Assembly: GCA_002862135.1 (NCBI GenBank)
Contig: PKCI01000038.1
Span: 1 to 64,000 of the forward strand
Origin: Verrucomicrobiota bacterium
GTDB taxonomy: Bacteria; Verrucomicrobiota; Verrucomicrobiia; Verrucomicrobiales; DEV007
Reading direction: 5' to 3'
DNA length: 64,000 nucleotides
The notes beneath the pieces are model-generated. The model worked only from the letters and a program-made list of their open reading frames with translations, did not search any database and was not told the DNA's origin. Below are positions 7,901 through 17,540 of the stretch, in pieces; position 1 is the stretch's first letter; each line of letters begins with the position of its first letter. Made by a program: the position numbers and the translations under genes.

Positions 7901-10285
7901 ATGAACGTTTCTCTCAAGTGGCTCTCTGATCACGTTGATTTCTCTGAGTATTCGATGGATGAGTTGGATGATCTACTGACCTTCACCGGTATCGAAGTGG
8001 AAGGCATTCAGAGTCTTCCCGACAACTTGGTGGTTGCCGAGGTTCTCTCCTCTGAGAAGCACCCTGATGCTGACAAACTTTCCGTATGCCAGGTCGATGA
8101 TGGTTCCGGAACGCCGCGCCAGATCGTTTGCGGCGCCAGGAATTACAGGGTGGGCGACAAGGTGCCGCTGGCCCGGCCCGGTTGTGTGCTTGACGCTGGT
8201 GACGGCAAAACCTTTGAAATCAGGGAGGGCAAGCTTCGTGGAGTGGAGTCTCTCGGCATGATGTGCGCCGCTTCCGAGATCGGTCTGACCGATGATGCTG
8301 ATGGGCTCATGATCCTGTCTCCCGATCTCAAGTCCGGAACGCCCCTGTCTGAAGTGTATCCGGCAGTCTTTGAACTGGAGATCACCCCGAACCGTCCCGA
8401 CTGCCTTAGTCATCTCGGTGTAGCTCGTGAGCTGGCGGCCCTGGCGAAGAAAGAACTGGCTGGTGCTTCTCACCACGGCGATTCTTCAACGCCGACGCGT
8501 GCAGCGAAAGATAAGGAGATCAAGATTTCGACGGAGTCATGCCCCTATTACACGGCTCGCATTATCCACGGCGTGAAAGTGGGCGAGTCTCCTGCGTGGT
8601 TGAAAGAGAAGCTCGAGTCCATCGGTCTTCGTCCGATCAACAATATCGTCGACATCACCAACTACGTGCTCATGGAAATGGGGCAGCCGCTCCATGCTTT
8701 CGACATGGCCAAGCTAGATGGCGGGATAAACGTGCGCCAGGCCGCGGAAGGCGAAGAGTTCCTCGCCCTCGACGGAGAGACGTATCCGCTGACTGAAGAA
8801 GACATGGTCATCGCTGATAGCTCCAAGGCAGTCGCAATTGGGGGTGTCATGGGCGGAGAAGACTCCGGCGTGACCGAGACGACGACCGATGTCCTGCTTG
8901 AGTCTGCCTACTTCGTGACTTCCAAGATTCGCCGCACGGCGCGTCGCCTCAACCTGCACTCGGATTCCAGCTACCGCTTCGAGCGGGGAGTCGATCCTTA
9001 CCAGGTGAATGGCGCGTCCGACCTGGCTATTAAGCTGATCCTCGAATTGGCTGGCGGAAAGGCCGAAGAAGAAATGGTGACCTGCGGCGAAATTCCGGCG
9101 GCCCCTGCATCGGTAGCTTTGGACAATGACTATTGCCGTTCCGTGATCGGTGCGGAAGTGCCCGATGAAGCGATCGAGGCGATTCTCACTTCACTCGGTT
9201 TGAGCAAAGGCGCTGATGCTTGGGACATTCCAACCTACCGTCTCGACTTGATTCGTCCAATTGATCTCGTCGAGGAAGTGGCTCGCGTTTACGGACTCGA
9301 TAATGTGCCGTCCAACCAGGGCGCCTGGTTTTCGCCGGCCTCCCAGGCGGACCACTACTTTGACTTTGCTTCCGGTATTCAAAGCACGCTGAGCAGTCTC
9401 GGCTTTTTCGAAGCCCGCAATCTAAAGCTGATCTCTGATCAACAGCTAACTGACGATCTGGCGACCTCGCACCGCGGCATGAGTCCGATCCGCCTGAAGA
9501 ATCCGCTCAATGACGAACAGGATTACCTGCGCCCGGGACTGGTGCCCGGCCTTCTTGCAACGGCGTCACGCAACCAGCGTTTCGGTAACGCCGATGTGCG
9601 CTTCTTCGAAATGGGGCGCGTTTTTACCGCGACGCCAAAGGGCGGGGAAGTGGAGCATGAGCATCTTGCTTTGCTCATGACTGGTGAACGCACGGCTCGC
9701 AGTTGGGCCGATGGCAAGCCGTCCAATCTCGACATTCACGATCTCCGTGCTGCCCTCGAAGAGATTTGCCCGAAGGGATTAAACCTGGTTCCGGTCGATG
9801 ACGATCGTATGCTTTGCGCCTGTAGCATTGAGATCGGGCGAGGCAAGAAAGCTACCAAGCTTGGGCTGGCGGGTATTGTGCCTCTGGCTCGCGCCCGTGA
9901 ACTGGATCTTGAAGCTCCGGTGATGGTGGCCGAAATCAATCTCAAGAAGCTGGCTTCAGCGGCTGGTGCCGACCTAAAATATAAAGAGCTTCCCAAGTTC
10001 CCCAGTAGCTCGCGTGACGTCGCCATGCTGGTTTCAGCTGATCTGGCGGCGGGAATAGTGGCGGACTTCTTTGCCAATCATGAGGAGCCTTTGCTCGAAT
10101 CTGTTGAGTTATTCGATGTTTTTCAGGACCCAAGTGGAGAAAAACTGCCCGCCGATAAAAAATCGCTGGCCTACTCTATTTCCTATCGTAGCGGGGATCG
10201 TACGCTCGAAGCAGCCGAGGTTGAGACTGCCCACGCCAAACTTTTAGATTCCCTAAAATCAGGTTTGCACGTAGAGTTTAGGTAA
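7901..10285 (+). CDS. pheT: Phenylalanyl-tRNA synthetase beta subunit
   Basis: 794 aa; N-terminal MNVSLKWLSDHVDF, tRNA-binding domain, B3/B4 region, ITNYVLMEMGQPLHAFD and C-terminal anticodon-binding-like domain. Confidence 0.97.
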   Translation: MNVSLKWLSDHVDFSEYSMDELDDLLTFTGIEVEGIQSLPDNLVVAEVLSSEKHPDADKLSVCQVDDGSGTPRQIVCGARNYRVGDKVPLARPGCVLDAGDGKTFEIREGKLRGVESLGMMCAASEIGLTDDADGLMILSPDLKSGTPLSEVYPAVFELEITPNRPDCLSHLGVARELAALAKKELAGASHHGDSSTPTRAAKDKEIKISTESCPYYTARIIHGVKVGESPAWLKEKLESIGLRPINNIVDITNYVLMEMGQPLHAFDMAKLDGGINVRQAAEGEEFLALDGETYPLTEEDMVIADSSKAVAIGGVMGGEDSGVTETTTDVLLESAYFVTSKIRRTARRLNLHSDSSYRFERGVDPYQVNGASDLAIKLILELAGGKAEEEMVTCGEIPAAPASVALDNDYCRSVIGAEVPDEAIEAILTSLGLSKGADAWDIPTYRLDLIRPIDLVEEVARVYGLDNVPSNQGAWFSPASQADHYFDFASGIQSTLSSLGFFEARNLKLISDQQLTDDLATSHRGMSPIRLKNPLNDEQDYLRPGLVPGLLATASRNQRFGNADVRFFEMGRVFTATPKGGEVEHEHLALLMTGERTARSWADGKPSNLDIHDLRAALEEICPKGLNLVPVDDDRMLCACSIEIGRGKKATKLGLAGIVPLARARELDLEAPVMVAEINLKKLASAAGADLKYKELPKFPSSSRDVAMLVSADLAAGIVADFFANHEEPLLESVELFDVFQDPSGEKLPADKKSLAYSISYRSGDRTLEAAEVETAHAKLLDSLKSGLHVEFR

Positions 10286-10330
10286 GTGACAAACAGAGAG
10301 AATTTACTGATTTTCCTGCTGTGCACGCCC

Positions 10331-10536
10331 TTGACCGATCATAATAAGTCCGGACCGTTAATACGTTAATGGGAGCTAAGCGAATCTTCGGCTGTCAGGC
10401 CTTCACTGGAAGGCAAAAGTCGATGAGCGGCACCCAACCTGTAGAGAGACGGGAACGTGACTTCACCATCGGCGACGGCACAAGTGGGTCTCCAAAGCGC
10501 TCCGATCCTGCCAATAGAGATTCGGGGCGCTTTTTT
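10331..10536 (+). ncRNA. Candidate structured RNA (6S-like RNA or cis-regulatory leader/attenuator) ending in an intrinsic terminator
   Basis: Intergenic block between pheT and the fatty-acid-like operon with a perfect hairpin GCCTTC-ACTG-GAAGGC, a longer-range pairing ACCCaACCTGT...ACAAGTGGGT, possible closing GGAG/CTCC, and the terminator AAAGCGCtCCGA...TCGGgGCGCTTTTTT. Family not proven; 5' end is a guess. Confidence 0.45.
10494..10536 (+). terminator. Rho-independent terminator 53 nt upstream of ORF 10589
   Basis: AAAGCGCTCCGA-tcctgccaatagagat-TCGGGGCGCTTTTTTG; about 12 bp stem followed by T6. Confidence 0.85.
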
Positions 10537-10588: not shown

Positions 10589-10846
10589 ATGTCTGAAGTC
10601 TTATCAGGGAAAGTCGCTAACATCTCCGGTGGAACCCGTGGAATCGGATCTGCCATGGGCATGAGGCTGAAGCACTTTCCTAAGTGTGAACACCTGCTTG
10701 AAAAATATGAGGAGCGAACTCCCCTCGGGGCAACGCTCACGCCTGAGCAGGTTGCCGATGCGATCTACCTCCTGTGCCTCTCCGAGTCGAGCATGGTAGC
10801 GGGGCCCACCCTGTTTGTTGACAGTGGTTACGCTATTTCCGGATGA
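10589..10846 (+). pseudogene. Internally deleted FabL-like enoyl-ACP reductase (SDR) remnant
   Basis: 85 aa joining an SDR N-terminus (SGKVANISGGTRGIGSAMGMRL) directly to a FabL-type C-terminus (LKHFPKCEHLLEKYEERTPLGATLTPEQVADAIYLLCLSESSMVAGPTLFVDSGYAISG). The middle ~170 aa, including the catalytic region, is missing. Reading frame is intact; 4-nt overlap with fabG. Confidence 0.75.
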
Positions 10847-11607
10847 GTGATTCCATTTCCCAACCTGATCCTGGCCTGGCCGGAAAGAATGCGATCGTCA
10901 CGGGCGGAAGCCGCGGTATCGGGCGGGCTATTGTCGAGCGCCTCGCTGCATCCGGTATGGATGTGACCTTCACATACGTGAGCAACGAAGCGGCTGCGAA
11001 AGGGGTGGTTGATGAGAACCCGGATTTAGCGATTACACCGATGAGAGTGGATGTCCGCGATTCGGCAGCGGCCCGGGCTTGTGTCGAGGCAATGGTAGAA
11101 CGGGTTGGGTCAATCGATGTGCTGGTGAATAACGCCGGTGTGATTCGCGACAATCTACTGCCGATGCTAGAGGACGACGATCTTACGACCGTTTTTGAGA
11201 CCAATATCGAAGGAGTCTTTAATTTTTGCCGTGCGGCCGTGCCTTACATGATGTCGAAGCGCTCCGGGCGAATCATCAACATCAGCTCTGTATCCGGAGA
11301 GAAAGGGGGACGGGGACAGACAAACTACGCAGCCAGCAAGGGTGCGGTTAATGCCTTTACCAAGTCTCTGGCCGTCGAGGTGGGTCGCCGTAAGATTCTC
11401 GTCAATGCGGTAGCTCCGGGAGTCATCGAAACAGAAATGTCTGAACAGGTGCGTGACCTGGCGGGTGATGAAATCACTTCCAATATCGTTCTGAAACGTT
11501 ATGGTCTACCGTCTGAAATTGCGAACGCTGTCTGGTTTCTCAGTTCCGACCTGGCTTCATACATCACGGGTCAGGTACTGAGCGTTGACGGCGGCTTCAA
11601 GTTTTAA
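10843..11607 (+). CDS. fabG: 3-oxoacyl-ACP reductase, FabG-like SDR
   Basis: GKNAIVTGGSRGIGRAIVERL, LVNNAGVIRDNLL, INISSVSGEKGGRGQTNYAASKGAVNAFTKSLAVEVGRRKILVNAVAPGVIETEM. Confidence 0.93.
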   Translation: MSDSISQPDPGLAGKNAIVTGGSRGIGRAIVERLAASGMDVTFTYVSNEAAAKGVVDENPDLAITPMRVDVRDSAAARACVEAMVERVGSIDVLVNNAGVIRDNLLPMLEDDDLTTVFETNIEGVFNFCRAAVPYMMSKRSGRIINISSVSGEKGGRGQTNYAASKGAVNAFTKSLAVEVGRRKILVNAVAPGVIETEMSEQVRDLAGDEITSNIVLKRYGLPSEIANAVWFLSSDLASYITGQVLSVDGGFKF

Positions 11608-11611
11608 AAAT

Positions 11612-12022
11612 ATGAGCACAGAAATTAGTCAGGAAGATATCAATGCGATCTACCCACAGGTAGCCGAAATTGTCGCAGATGCCCTCGGTTGTGACGAGGA
11701 CGAGGTGAAGCCCGATTCCTCTCTTATTGGGGATTTAGATGCTGAGTCAATCGACTTTCTTGATATCGTTTTTCGCCTCGAGCAGGAGTTCAAAGTCAAG
11801 ATTCCTCGTGGAAAAGCGATGGAGGAAGCTCGCGGTGAGCTGAGCGAAGAGGAGTTTGAACAGGGGGGAGTTGTAACCCCGGCTGGGCTCGAGAAAATCA
11901 AAGCCTACTTAACCGAGATACCTGTTGAAAGAATCTCGGATCCTCTCAAATCAGCTGAAATCCCCAAGCTTTTCACGACCGAAACCTTCTGCAAGATGGT
12001 GCTTCGTGAAACTAAGGGGTGA
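11612..12022 (+). CDS. Acyl carrier protein with C-terminal extension
   Basis: LGCDEDEVKPDSSLIGDLDAESIDFLDIVFRLEQEFKVKIP: ACP fold with ESID in place of DSLD; about 55 extra C-terminal residues. Start re-placed to MSTEIS at 11612. Confidence 0.88.
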   Translation: MSTEISQEDINAIYPQVAEIVADALGCDEDEVKPDSSLIGDLDAESIDFLDIVFRLEQEFKVKIPRGKAMEEARGELSEEEFEQGGVVTPAGLEKIKAYLTEIPVERISDPLKSAEIPKLFTTETFCKMVLRETKG

Positions 12023-12079
12023 TCACTTTTTCCCTCGGTTGGGTAACCGCGGAGATCTGGCTCCTTATGTGTTGTCTGA

Positions 12080-12907
12080 ATGAGTGAGCACTTCCGAGCC
12101 TTTTCCTTCGTCGATCGCATTGTCAGCGATGAACCGGGCACGGGAATTGTCGGGGAGTATCATATCCCTGATACACTGGAGAATTTTTCTCTCTCTCTTG
12201 TGGCCGAGTCGATCGGGCAGTGCGCCGCTATGTCTTCGATGGCGTCAGTAGATTTTTGCTTTCGTCCTGTGGCGGGCATTGCAGGAGAGGTGAGATTCTG
12301 TGGTAGAGTCAACCCTGGTGACACCTTGCAGTTGCATGCTGAGTTGGTAAAGTCTGACCGAGAAGCTGTTGGCTACCATGGAAAAGCCCTTGTTGATGGG
12401 GAGCCAGTCGTGAAGCTTTTAAATTGTCTCGGGCCAATGGTTCCGATAGATGACTTCGATGATGCGGAAGCGGTGCGGGCGCGTTATAAACTGCTCCAGG
12501 AAAGGGGAGCAGAACCGGATGCATTCACAGGGGTGCCGGTGATCGACTTCGAAATCTCTCGATTGGTATCGGGAAGTGAACTAGAGGGGCGGTTCGTAAT
12601 TCCTGTTGAGGCTGCTTTTTTTGGAGATCATTTTGCAAGACGCCCCGTATTTCCCGGAACCCTCTTGATGGACTTAAACCTCCGTTTTCTCTCCAGCCTG
12701 ATCGATACGCTGGATGGTGGCCCGTGGGGGGTCGAGGGTATGCGGGACGTCAAGTTGCGCTCCTTCATGCCGCCGGGAGAAGAGCTGAGCCTGTATGGCA
12801 AACTGGAGAATATTGAAGGTGACCGAGCTACGATTCTCGTGCAGAGTCGTCGTGGAAAGCGATTGAACAGCAGTGCTCGGGTGCAGCTGAGTCGGACACC
12901 GAAATGA
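12080..12907 (+). CDS. Tandem hotdog (FabA/FabZ-like) dehydratase
   Basis: Two hotdog halves; the second has FFGDHFARRPVFPGTLLMD, matching the HFxxRPxxPG active-site region. Overlaps the next ketosynthase by 4 nt. Confidence 0.82.
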   Translation: MSEHFRAFSFVDRIVSDEPGTGIVGEYHIPDTLENFSLSLVAESIGQCAAMSSMASVDFCFRPVAGIAGEVRFCGRVNPGDTLQLHAELVKSDREAVGYHGKALVDGEPVVKLLNCLGPMVPIDDFDDAEAVRARYKLLQERGAEPDAFTGVPVIDFEISRLVSGSELEGRFVIPVEAAFFGDHFARRPVFPGTLLMDLNLRFLSSLIDTLDGGPWGVEGMRDVKLRSFMPPGEELSLYGKLENIEGDRATILVQSRRGKRLNSSARVQLSRTPK

Positions 12908-14205
12908 GTTTGATTGATAAACGCCGCATTGCCGTAACCGGAATTGGACTAGTGACTCCGGTGGGGAATGATCGAGAATCGACCTGGGAAGCCCTCCTGG
13001 CCGGAAGGAGCGGTGGAGCGCAGATTGAGAACTTTGATGCCAGCGGTTTTTCGACTACGATCGGCGCCGAAGTAAAAGGCTTCGAACGTGAAAACGCCGC
13101 GCCCTGTCGAAAGTTGTTGAAGGGTGCTTCTCGGGCTGATGGATTTGCGCTGGCAGCAGCGAACGAAGCCCTCTCTGATGCCGGGATCGCTCCCACTGAT
13201 GAGGACTCACACCGATGGGGGCTGGCAGTCGGAGCCGGTATGATGACAGTGGACTACGACGATCTCAAGGTGGTCTATGATTACGCGACCGAGGAAGGAG
13301 AGTTTCAACCGAACGGATTGCTGAGGCAGGATTATCCGGCTGACCCGATCAGCTTCTGCCGCTGGCAATCCAACTCCGGATTGAGCATGTTGACAAAAGC
13401 ATTCGGGATTCGAGGATACGCTACCTCAGTTCACACTGCTTGCGCTTCTGGCGGTCAGGCGATTGGATCTGCCCTAAAGGCTTTGAGACGAGGGCAGTGT
13501 GACAGGGTTCTTGCTGGCGGTTTCGATTCCATGTTAAATCCAGTCGGGATTTCCGGATTCTGCCTGCTTGGAGCTCTCTCTACCGACAATGATAACCCGG
13601 CTGGCGCAAGCCGGCCGTTTGATGAGACTCGAAATGGATTCTTGTTAGGAGAAGGTGCTGGATTTCTGGTTCTGGAGGACTGGGATGCTGCAATAGAGCG
13701 TGAAGCAAAAATATATGCGGAGCTGGGCGGAGATGGTAACTCACTTAGTTGCTATCGCATAACTGATTCACCACCAGATGGCAATGGCCCTATCCAGGCG
13801 ATCGAGCAAGCCCTGGCAGATGCCGGGATCAGCGCTGGTGAGATTGATTATGTGAATGCTCATGGCACGTCTACCCAGATGAATGACCGCAGCGAATGTG
13901 CCGCTTTGAAAGCTGTTTTCGGAGATCGAGTTAATGATGTGAGTGTGAGTTCTACAAAGAGTTGTATGGGGCACTTAATTGCTGCCGCAGGAGCTGTAGA
14001 GGCGGCTGTCTGTTGCCTTGCGATTCGCGACAGCACTGCACCGGTGAATGCTAATCATCAGAATCCTGATCCCAACTGTGATGTGAATCTGGTCATTGGG
14101 GAATCGAGGGCACTTGAAATTCGCGCGGCCCTCTCGAATTCACTCGGCTTTGGAGGATCAAACAGTTCGCTGGTATTTCTCAATCCGGAAAGGGGACAAC
14201 TATGA
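12904..14205 (+). CDS. Beta-ketoacyl-ACP synthase, KAS II/FabF-like
   Basis: VTGIGLVTPVGN; Cys in VHTACASGGQAIGSAL; His in VNAHGTSTQMND; KSCMGHLIAAAG. Confidence 0.93.
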   Translation: MSLIDKRRIAVTGIGLVTPVGNDRESTWEALLAGRSGGAQIENFDASGFSTTIGAEVKGFERENAAPCRKLLKGASRADGFALAAANEALSDAGIAPTDEDSHRWGLAVGAGMMTVDYDDLKVVYDYATEEGEFQPNGLLRQDYPADPISFCRWQSNSGLSMLTKAFGIRGYATSVHTACASGGQAIGSALKALRRGQCDRVLAGGFDSMLNPVGISGFCLLGALSTDNDNPAGASRPFDETRNGFLLGEGAGFLVLEDWDAAIEREAKIYAELGGDGNSLSCYRITDSPPDGNGPIQAIEQALADAGISAGEIDYVNAHGTSTQMNDRSECAALKAVFGDRVNDVSVSSTKSCMGHLIAAAGAVEAAVCCLAIRDSTAPVNANHQNPDPNCDVNLVIGESRALEIRAALSNSLGFGGSNSSLVFLNPERGQL

Positions 14206-15512
14206 AGAACGCCCCCGGTAAAATTGTTTTCACGGGAAGCGGGATTGTTTGTGGATCCGGTTCAAGCGTTGCAGAGGTTTGGGAAAATCTCGCTGCCGGG
14301 AAAACTTCAATCGCAGAGTTTCACTGGGAGCGCGGCCGAGTTCGCCGATATGAATGGGGCAATGAGGGTTGGCCTTGCAGGGTGGCTTCCGAGGTAAAGG
14401 AAGATAATCGGACGCTGGTTCCAGATCGTAAGCTGCACAAGACGATTTCACGTAAGGACATGTATGGGATCTACGCGGCTGAGCAGGCAATCGAAGATTC
14501 GGGTGTCTTGAAGTGTCGAGACAATATGGATGCGGCAAGTCGAGAAGCATTCAATGATCGCACAGGACTGATAGTTGGGTCAGGCGGCGGGAACTATCAG
14601 GACAACTACGACTTCTTTCCCCTGATATATGAGGCGAACGAGGAAATGCCGGGATTTGGAAGGGAATTGAATAACCGCGTTACTCCAATGTGGTTGTTGC
14701 GTATTCTCCCAAACAATGTGTTGTGTCACGTTGGTATCCGAGGGCAACTCAAAGGAACAAATGCCTGCATCACGAATCAATGTGCGAGCAGTCCGATGGC
14801 GGTGGCAGAAGCCGCCTCCGCGATCTGGAATCAAGAGGCTGACCGTATCGTGGCGGTGGGTCATGATTCCGTTTTGGAGCCTGAGCATATGCTGTATTAC
14901 CACAACCTTGGCCTTCTTTCCAAAGAGGTGCCGAAGCCTTTTGATGCTGCACGCTCCGGAACCGTTTTTGGAGAAGGAGGTGGTGCTGTAGTTATGGAAA
15001 GAGAAGAAGAGGCTCTTTCCCGCGGAGCCTCAATTCTTGGAGAGTTCCTTGGATTCGGTTCTACCTGTGAAGCAAGAGGGACAACGGACCTTGATCCAAC
15101 TGGTGACGGAGTGATGCGGGCAATCAAGCAGGCTCTCGATGATGCTGAGTTGAAACCGGAGGATGTGGGGATGATCTGCGCCCACGGCAACGGGACAAGA
15201 GCGTCTGATTTGACTGAGGGGCTGGGGATTCAGTCAGTTTTTGGTAGTGATATCCCTCCGGTGACTGCTTTCAAGTGGGCATACGGTCACTTGATTGGGG
15301 CTGCAGGTATTGTTGATTTGGTGATGACGCTGGAAGTATTAAAACGAGGTAGAGTCCCCGCTATCTCATCCTTGAATAAAGTTGATGATCAGTTGGTGGG
15401 TTTCCCGGCGCAGCTCAAGTCATTGGCTCCGAGAAGTGATGTAGCCCTCGTGATTTGTCGTGCGTTTGGTGGATTGAACATCGTACTGGCAGTTCGTGGT
15501 CTTTTGGGTTAG
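14202..15512 (+). CDS. Second beta-ketoacyl synthase
   Basis: GSGIVCGSGSSVAEVW; Cys in NACITNQCASSPMAVAEA; ICAHGNGTRASD; FKWAYGHLIGAAG. All three active-site residues appear retained. Confidence 0.9.
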   Translation: MKNAPGKIVFTGSGIVCGSGSSVAEVWENLAAGKTSIAEFHWERGRVRRYEWGNEGWPCRVASEVKEDNRTLVPDRKLHKTISRKDMYGIYAAEQAIEDSGVLKCRDNMDAASREAFNDRTGLIVGSGGGNYQDNYDFFPLIYEANEEMPGFGRELNNRVTPMWLLRILPNNVLCHVGIRGQLKGTNACITNQCASSPMAVAEAASAIWNQEADRIVAVGHDSVLEPEHMLYYHNLGLLSKEVPKPFDAARSGTVFGEGGGAVVMEREEEALSRGASILGEFLGFGSTCEARGTTDLDPTGDGVMRAIKQALDDAELKPEDVGMICAHGNGTRASDLTEGLGIQSVFGSDIPPVTAFKWAYGHLIGAAGIVDLVMTLEVLKRGRVPAISSLNKVDDQLVGFPAQLKSLAPRSDVALVICRAFGGLNIVLAVRGLLG

Positions 15513-15551
15513 TGGGGGACTGCACCTGTTCGGTGAAAAGATCTGGTAGAG

Positions 15552-16793
15552 ATGCGTCAGGGAATTGATACCGTTGAGATCTCGAGGATAGAGAAACTAT
15601 TAAGTGATCTCGACGAGGAAGGGCTTCGCCGGTTCTTTTCTGAATACGAACTTTCAGAAGCCGGCAACGGGAAAGGGCGAGCTCAGCGCCTCGCGGCAAG
15701 ATTTGCGGCCAAGGAAGCCTGCTGCAAATTGTTTCCGAAGGAGATTTGTTTCGGGAAAATCGAGCCGGTCGATTTTGCTGTTGAGCGAAGTGGTTATGGC
15801 GATCCGAAAGTTATCCCGAGCGAAGTAGCGCGTGCGGTCATGAATCATCATCGAGTAGGAGATATCCAGCTTTCGATGACTCACACAGATATAAGTGCGA
15901 CTGCAATTGCTTCGGCTGTTCCTGCCCCGATTTTAGTCCCATGGTATGGGAGGTTAGCTTACCGGATAATTCCACTTCGTCGCTCTGTGGTGATGCACAA
16001 TTTGAAGCTCGTATTTGGAAAGACGCTTACGCCAGATCAGATCGAAGATATGGCCAAGGCGTTTTATGCTCATCACTTAAAGAGCCTTGGTGAGGTGATG
16101 AAACTTCCGTTCCTAACAGAGAAACAAAAGTCGCAGTTGGTGGAGGTGCGAGGCGGCGAGAACTTGACCAGTGCTCTCGAGGAGGGTAACGGGGTTCTCT
16201 TGCTTACGGGGCATTTCGGGAACTGGGAGCTTTCCACAGTCGTGGGATTGAAACAGTTCAGCGAGTTCTCCGGGCGCTTTCACTTCATTCGTCGACCATT
16301 GAAACCGAAGTGGGTGAATAACTGGGTTATGGGACGCTTTCGGAAAGCTGGCTTCGGAACGCTGGAAAAGGAGGGGTCACTTGATGAAATCCTCGATCTC
16401 CTGGACCAGAACCACATCGTCGTCTCGGTCTTTGATCAGTATACAATCTTAAAATACGGTGTTGTCTCTCAGTTTTTCGGCAGGGCTGCGAGAACGTTCA
16501 AGAGTCTGGCGATGTTGGCTCAATGCACAAATGCGGTTGTGGTTCCTGCCTCCAGCTGGCGCGAACCTAACGGCACCCATGTAGTGCAGTTTGAACCGCG
16601 TATAGAGGTCGCAAAGAAAGGGCGAAGTCGCGACAATGTTTTGACCAACACTCGACGATTTAACGAAGCGTTGGAGAGAATTATTTTGCGGCATCCTGAG
16701 CAGTGGATCTGGATGCACAAGCGTTGGAAGAACGAAGGAGACGACCTGACTGTCGACAGGAAGCGGGCAACACGGGATTCCTCAGCTGCCTGA
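15552..16793 (+). CDS. Fusion: AcpS-type 4'-phosphopantetheinyl transferase + LpxL/HtrB-type acyltransferase
   Basis: N-term MRQGIDTVEISRIEKLLSDL...RLAARFAAKEACCKLF...DIQLSMTHTDISATAIA (AcpS). From about aa 128 YGRLAYRIIPLRRSVVMHNLKLVFG...LLTGHFGNWELSTVVG (lauroyl acyltransferase HFGNWE motif). Confidence 0.88.
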   Translation: MRQGIDTVEISRIEKLLSDLDEEGLRRFFSEYELSEAGNGKGRAQRLAARFAAKEACCKLFPKEICFGKIEPVDFAVERSGYGDPKVIPSEVARAVMNHHRVGDIQLSMTHTDISATAIASAVPAPILVPWYGRLAYRIIPLRRSVVMHNLKLVFGKTLTPDQIEDMAKAFYAHHLKSLGEVMKLPFLTEKQKSQLVEVRGGENLTSALEEGNGVLLLTGHFGNWELSTVVGLKQFSEFSGRFHFIRRPLKPKWVNNWVMGRFRKAGFGTLEKEGSLDEILDLLDQNHIVVSVFDQYTILKYGVVSQFFGRAARTFKSLAMLAQCTNAVVVPASSWREPNGTHVVQFEPRIEVAKKGRSRDNVLTNTRRFNEALERIILRHPEQWIWMHKRWKNEGDDLTVDRKRATRDSSAA

Positions 16794-17540
16794 TCAGCGT
16801 TCGACTATCTGCTGAGACTGGCGTGTTTTGACAATGGACCCGGACTTTAACACGCCCTGCCAGCTGGTGCATGGGTAGACGATGGAATCACGCCCAAGGA
16901 TTGATCCGGGGCTCAGGACGCTGTTGCAACCAACCTCGGTGTGGTCGCCGACAATAGCGCCGAATTTTCGAAGCCCGGTATTGATTAAGCCACCTTCGCC
17001 GTCGCGGACGACGACATTGTTCCGGTCGAGACGGACGTTGGAACAGATCACACCGGCGCCGAAGTGGGCTTTGTGACCCAGGATGGAGTCACCCACATAG
17101 TTGAAGTGGGGGACCTCGCAATGATTGAAAAGAAGACAGTTTTTAAACTCGCAGGAATTGCCGAGCACGCAGTCGTCGCCGGCGATGACGTTGGCACGGA
17201 TGTAGGCTCCGCTGCGGACGGTGCACCCTGAACCGATCCAGGCGGGGCCTTTGATGACCGCGTTGGCCTCGACCGTTGCGTCGGGTGCGATATAGACCCG
17301 ATCACCGAGGACGGCGCGTTCGTGAACGGTGCCTTGGATAAGGTCACCTTCGACGGAATCGAGAAGCTGCTCGAGGTAGCTGCCAATCCTGCCCAGTGCC
17401 GACCAGACAGGCTCGTCTTCAGAAAAGATCGACGCGTGGTCGGTCTGGCTGAAATCGAGGTAGTCAGTTGATGTTAACATGATTGCCGCTGGCTTCGGAA
17501 CTTCGGCAAGTTCCGCTACGGGATTCTGCGGAGGCTCCAC
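16794..17540 (-). CDS. Left-handed beta-helix (GlmU C-terminal-like) acyltransferase-type protein, no nucleotidyltransferase domain
   Basis: Hexapeptide-type repeats: VYIAPDATVEANAVIKGPAWIGSGCTVRSGAYIRANVIAGDDCVLGNSCEFKNCLLFNHCEVPHFNYVGDSILG. Start may be at 17480 (MLTSTDY). Confidence 0.82.
   Translation of the reverse strand: MEPPQNPVAELAEVPKPAAIMLTSTDYLDFSQTDHASIFSEDEPVWSALGRIGSYLEQLLDSVEGDLIQGTVHERAVLGDRVYIAPDATVEANAVIKGPAWIGSGCTVRSGAYIRANVIAGDDCVLGNSCEFKNCLLFNHCEVPHFNYVGDSILGHKAHFGAGVICSNVRLDRNNVVVRDGEGGLINTGLRKFGAIVGDHTEVGCNSVLSPGSILGRDSIVYPCTSWQGVLKSGSIVKTRQSQQIVER

Follow-up and report, generated by a model that had tools for sequence, protein, structure and literature searches.

Two described systems come closest to the locus reported here. 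The rhizobial acpXL-fabZXL-fabF2XL-fabF1XL-(adh2XL)-lpxXL cluster produces a very long acyl chain and transfers this chain to lipid A (PMC5613085, PMC11901934). Aryl-polyene (APE) clusters comprise two acyl carrier proteins (ACPs), an acyl-ACP synthetase, a thioesterase, a glycosyltransferase/acyltransferase, a transporter and LolA/LolB-like genes (PMC8253772, PMC8358021). The locus is a run of seven features on the forward strand at positions 10589-16793 of a 64,000-nucleotide stretch (hereafter the window; positions 1 to 64,000 of contig PKCI01000038.1, assembly GCA_002862135.1, from a Verrucomicrobiota bacterium of the Verrucomicrobiales lineage DEV007). It represents a real, conserved and apparently undescribed cassette, no description of which was found in open-access full-text papers. 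On balance, we favor the view that it is a self-contained type II fatty acid synthase (FAS) line for one special membrane-lipid acyl chain, most likely a secondary chain of lipid A.

Gene content, order and distribution

The features of the cassette are as follows.

10589-10846, + strand: remnant of an enoyl reductase (ER), 85 aa; C-terminal piece of adh_short_C2, with the YX6K catalytic region deleted
10843-11607, + strand: FabG-like 3-oxoacyl-ACP reductase (KR), with family matches and a YAASK motif
11612-12022, + strand: ACP, 136 aa from the ATG at 11612; phosphopantetheine-site Ser within DAESIDFLD; a conserved extension of ~50 aa at the C terminus
12080-12907, + strand: double-hotdog FabZ-type dehydratase (DH; FabA/FabZ match), with conserved residues E43 (first half) and H184 (second half)
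12904-14205, + strand: ketosynthase KS1, with a complete Cys-His-His site
14202-15512, + strand: ketosynthase-like partner KS2, with Cys in Verrucomicrobiota and Ser/Thr/Ala in Pseudomonadota, and with His and Lys retained
15552-16793, + strand: AcpS-type phosphopantetheinyl transferase (PPTase) and LpxL-type acyltransferase (AT) in one frame; ACPS and Lip_A_acyltrans matches; HX4E motif GHFGNWE

All seven frames have significant Pfam/NCBIfam family matches, in agreement with the gene set, strand and place given in a preliminary description made from the sequence alone, and the ATGA overlaps that it reported were verified at 10843 (ER remnant/KR), 12904 (DH/KS1) and 14202 (KS1/KS2). Neither FabH nor FabD was found inside the cassette.

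Scanning a KS2 alignment against 84,980 genomes revealed 121 stretches, the best 80 of which were retained for locus counts; 42 of these are from Verrucomicrobiota, 35 from Pseudomonadota (mostly Burkholderiales) and three from Methylomirabilota. Most of the 80 loci derive from metagenome bins, whose names may be wrong, but isolates among the carriers include Jezberella montanilacus and three Zwartia species. The order ER-KR-ACP-DH-KS1-KS2-PPTase/AT recurs across the loci, and because it does so in ~80 loci from three phyla, the cassette is far beyond chance. All eight domains are nearly complete in 50 of the 80 loci, a count that may be slightly high since it was made before ER cross-hits were filtered, and a few Verrucomicrobiota loci (L056 and L107, for example) hold partial cassettes. 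The AcpS and LpxL parts of the PPTase/AT share one frame in 72 of 75 loci. In a search of 28 relatives, the full-length AcpS-LpxL fusion was present in the majority of genomes of the same genus, and no genome from the other searched families of the order had it. In a sample of 388 genomes from across the phylum, the source genome alone gave a KS2 match well clear of the scores usual for FabF-like proteins, and the cassette is therefore patchy.

Active-site residues of the cassette enzymes are conserved across loci. Each of the two ketosynthases forms a single clade, and the KS1 tree splits Verrucomicrobiota from Pseudomonadota and Methylomirabilota just as the KS2 tree does, as would be expected of a unit inherited together.

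Comparison with described and housekeeping systems

Among known systems, the rhizobial acpXL-lpxXL cluster, overlooked in the preliminary description, is the nearest analogue; the cassette appears to work in the manner of the acpXL system but does not belong to it. The chain that the rhizobial cluster places on lipid A is of the omega-1-hydroxy C26-C30 type. Common to both are a specialized ACP, a dehydratase, two ketosynthases and a lipid A acyltransferase, encoded on one strand in the order ACP-DH-KS-KS-AT, with one ketosynthase lacking the usual active-site motif; a simple pattern search detected no typical Cys motif in FabF2XL, as is also true of the KS2 of Pseudomonadota. In contrast to the rhizobial cluster, the cassette also encodes a KR, an ER and an AT-fused AcpS, its DH is a double hotdog, its ACP has 136 aa rather than ~92 aa, the order of its ketosynthases is reversed, and its KS2 and FabF2XL are not close relatives. 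With reference acpXL clusters drawn from Pseudomonadota genomes via the AcpXL model, KS1 is sister to FabF1XL (support 94/93; alternative placements, at a p-AU of ~0.2, are not rejected), and KS2 and FabF2XL form separate starred groups in the KS tree. Direct membership in the acpXL family is rejected, as the window ACP scores 51.4 bits against the AcpXL model NF005079 (cut-off 83), the window AT scores 101.9 bits against NF005120, taken as the LpxXL model (cut-off 273), and KS2 lies outside the FabF2XL clade.

APE clusters and the cassette both have KR, DH, ACP, PPTase, LPLAT and what is, in the cassette, a putative pair of ketosynthase and chain-length factor (KS-CLF), and the cassette, too, would join its chain to a lipid. 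Unlike APE clusters, it has no second ACP, acyl-ACP synthetase, thioesterase, glycosyltransferase, transporter or LolA/LolB-like genes and usually has an ER (50 of the 56 loci that hold the region), whose absence from the source genome is a loss. With the gene list of PMC8253772 unmatched and the ER intact in most loci, assignment to a standard APE cluster is rejected, as the preliminary description had anticipated.

Housekeeping type II FAS (FabF, FabG, FabZ, ACP and FabI/FabL) uses the same enzyme classes, to which the cassette adds KS2, the PPTase-AT fusion and the C-terminally extended ACP. The cassette is independent of this system in the source genome (3.48 Mb in 239 contigs, ~92% complete). 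Genome-wide searches, done family by family, located housekeeping copies elsewhere: FabF on contig C7, FabZ on C136, AcpS on C3, and FabI on C220, the last being 45% identical to E. coli FabI and carrying a YNVMGVAK motif. In the KS trees, the KS1 and KS2 clades lie apart from housekeeping FabF. The presence of KR, ACP, DH and KS would be consistent with the cassette being the housekeeping fatty-acid operon, but its FabF-, FabZ-, AcpS- and enoyl-reductase-type genes are not the sole copies in the genome, its ketosynthases group apart from FabF, and its full-length fusion is shared by most genomes of the genus but by no other searched family of the order; this explanation is rejected as extremely improbable. 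The preliminary description had named a housekeeping FAS as the outcome that would undo its proposal, a dedicated pathway for a specialized acyl chain, served by a carrier, a PPTase and an LpxL-like acyltransferase of its own. The position of the KS clades and the separate fab/acpS genes speak against that outcome, and the proposal is supported.

Ketosynthase partner, dehydratase and enoyl reductase

KS1 retains Cys180, His320 and His357, and KS2 retains His328, Lys358 and His363. At the nucleophile site of KS2 (Cys194), Cys is found in 41 of 42 Verrucomicrobiota sequences, whereas all 35 from Pseudomonadota have Ser, Thr or Ala; the three Methylomirabilota have one Cys, one Ser and one Thr. 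Because the nucleophile is replaced, the Pseudomonadota KS2 is unable to carry out condensation by the usual route. It is most simply read as a CLF-like partner of the adjacent KS1. The two genes are translationally coupled in the window (overlap at 14202), the partner being without Cys in Pseudomonadota and with Cys in the window, and the proteins may form a KS1-KS2 heterodimer. A nine-residue insertion in the window KS2 (residues ~42-50) is also present in L022 and absent from nearly all other homologues. Elsewhere in the genome, contigs C19 and C206 (L039, L040) carry large open frames (4029 and 1147 aa) that contain ketosynthase domains and are probably type I polyketide synthases.

The DH is FabZ-like in sequence, whereas its fold is like that of double-hotdog enzymes; its structure is predicted with high confidence to be a double hotdog (pLDDT 94). 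Active sites of FabA/FabZ combine residues from two hotdogs and, as Glu43 and His184 lie in separate halves of the DH, each chain would hold one complete site. A fold search with the C-terminal extension of the ACP gave no informative match.

The window ER, called a FabL-like remnant in the preliminary description, can be defined more closely as the two ends (~26 residues at the N terminus, 59 at the C terminus) of a YX6K enoyl reductase of 251 aa with an internal in-frame deletion, and scores 62.6 bits against the FabL model NF005975. Homologues are intact in L025, L027 and L028, that of L025 scoring 327.3 bits against the same model (cut-off 328) and carrying the motif YTFIGASK. Among loci holding the region, the ER is complete in 32 of 32 from Pseudomonadota and Methylomirabilota and in 18 of 24 from Verrucomicrobiota, and the losses are confined to this genus. 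Only scraps remain in L041 and L042, relatives of the window copy, L045 and L046 carry different internal deletions, L054 has a decayed copy, and in L056 the adjacent KR and ACP genes are missing as well. The junction of the deletion in L046 (= L030; G007) lies at a short repeat, LKHF, of which the intact protein has two copies. On a tree of KS1 plus KS2, in which some forks are weakly supported, ER loss needs at least three changes. Perhaps the in-frame remnant maintains the overlap with the KR start for translational coupling. Between the window and an ER-less relative, the remaining cassette genes have pN/pS values of 0.07-0.31, with synonymous sites saturated; since these genes are under purifying selection, the pathway appears maintained without the ER.

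Given a FabL-type ER in most loci, the usual cassette product is probably reduced, and the polyene product named as a candidate in the preliminary description does not hold as a general statement, the ER being encoded so widely. A polyene is possible only in the few ER-less species, the source species among them, where ER loss would lead to a polyunsaturated chain and an aryl-polyene-like pigment lipid. The deletion in the window, the losses or truncations in L041, L042, L045, L046 and L054 through at least three changes, and the purifying selection on KR, DH and KS would all fit such a product, which we nonetheless consider fairly unlikely, as the FabI in the genome could act in trans and the cassette is without an aryl-starter ligase, thioesterase or transporter. 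It is quite improbable that the operon is dying in this lineage with the ER the first gene to go. ER deletions are recurrent within the genus, and next to its cassette L027 has a decaying fragment of a second acyltransferase (8245-8397, - strand), but the six remaining genes are intact and purifying selection acts on them.

Lipid acceptor, proposed pathway and neighboring genes

Both halves of the fusion retain their signature residues. The LpxL half matches PF03279 with 142.3 bits (cut-off 22.3) and has the HX4D/E motif, H221 and E226 being invariant in the genus; the AcpS half matches PF01648 with 34 bits (cut-off 25), with D6, E55 and K59 invariant. The best-matching AT models are lipid A acyltransferases, and a PIM acyltransferase model was also matched, with 80 bits. 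In the AT tree, in which two APE rows were misplaced by very long branches and of which the coarse grouping alone was used, the cassette AT stands as a separate group, outside LpxL/LpxM and likewise outside LpxXL. The source genome has LpxK, and lipid A is therefore probably made. In nine Pseudomonadota loci an LpxO-like gene, whose product scores 452 bits against the lipid A hydroxylase (LpxO) model (cut-off 500), follows the AT on the same strand after 21-133 nt, and in a tenth it lies farther off. Together, LpxK and the LpxO-like neighbors point to lipid A as the candidate acceptor. In G026:C28 and G005:C71 (L192, L193) and in other families of the order, LpxL-like domains occur in open frames of ~550-760 aa without the AcpS half.

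Upstream in ~20 loci are genes for a condensation-domain-like acyltransferase, an alpha/beta-hydrolase-like lipoprotein and an ICMT-like methyltransferase. These upstream lipid genes are found in L062, L069, L074, L084, L095 and many Burkholderiales loci; they occur in two phyla, but their order differs. Five genomes of the genus carry related condensation-like genes at other places, and the lipoprotein hydrolase was not found in the genus. No flanking gene common to all loci was found.

Several points weigh against the reading that we favor. The AT group is separate from LpxL/LpxM and LpxXL, so that lipid A is a presumptive acceptor; the LpxO adjacency is limited to a subset of Pseudomonadota; and the KS2 of Verrucomicrobiota retains Cys and could be an active ketosynthase there. 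The same dedicated pathway might instead serve a glycolipid, aminolipid or phospholipid, an alternative that is possible, if somewhat unlikely. The LpxL superfamily holds other acyltransferases, as the match to the PIM model illustrates, the cassette AT groups apart, and the upstream condensation-like acyltransferase and lipoprotein hydrolase genes suggest extra lipid chemistry, but the LpxO-like neighbors and the best AT models argue for lipid A. Doubtful, too, is a fuller proposal in which lipid A or another outer-membrane lipid would bear a polyketide-like chain from a KS-CLF-type iterative synthase, handed over directly by the PPTase-AT and polyene in ER-less species, including the source.

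For the dedicated lipid A acyl-chain line that we favor, the pathway may be envisaged as follows. The AcpS half of the fusion would place phosphopantetheine onto the dedicated ACP, and priming and malonyl loading would come from the housekeeping system. KS1, with the coupled KS2 as its chain-length-setting partner, would elongate the chain with malonyl units, and each round would be processed by the KR and the double-hotdog DH, joined in most species by the FabL-like ER. The LpxL half would then move the finished chain from the ACP directly to the lipid acceptor, and no thioesterase would therefore be needed. In the source species, without the ER, either housekeeping FabI would reduce in trans or the chain would stay partly unsaturated.

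If true, this would constitute a second system for a custom long acyl chain on an outer-membrane lipid, widespread and apparently undescribed, outside the alphaproteobacteria (acpXL). As the cassette carries most of the needed parts, including a PPTase fused to the AT, it could be transferred to E. coli K-12 and its output read by mass spectrometry, and cultured carriers exist in Zwartia and Jezberella. The Cys/Ser/Thr/Ala switch in KS2 would be a natural experiment in the passage from ketosynthase to chain-length factor, and the repeated ER losses one in the passage from saturated to unsaturated product; the enzyme lost in the source genome could change the product.

Beyond the cassette, the window holds a 6S RNA gene at 10310-10494 (+ strand), between pheT and the cassette (Rfam RF00013, 48.1 bits against a gathering threshold of 46.4), which is strongly conserved within the genus and seems, by eye, to be followed by a GC-rich inverted repeat and a T-run at ~10495-10535. 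On the other side, a gene for a GlmU-like hexapeptide protein adjoins the cassette at 16794-17540 (- strand); it is conserved with frr-pyrH-fmt in the genus and probably belongs to the neighboring operon.

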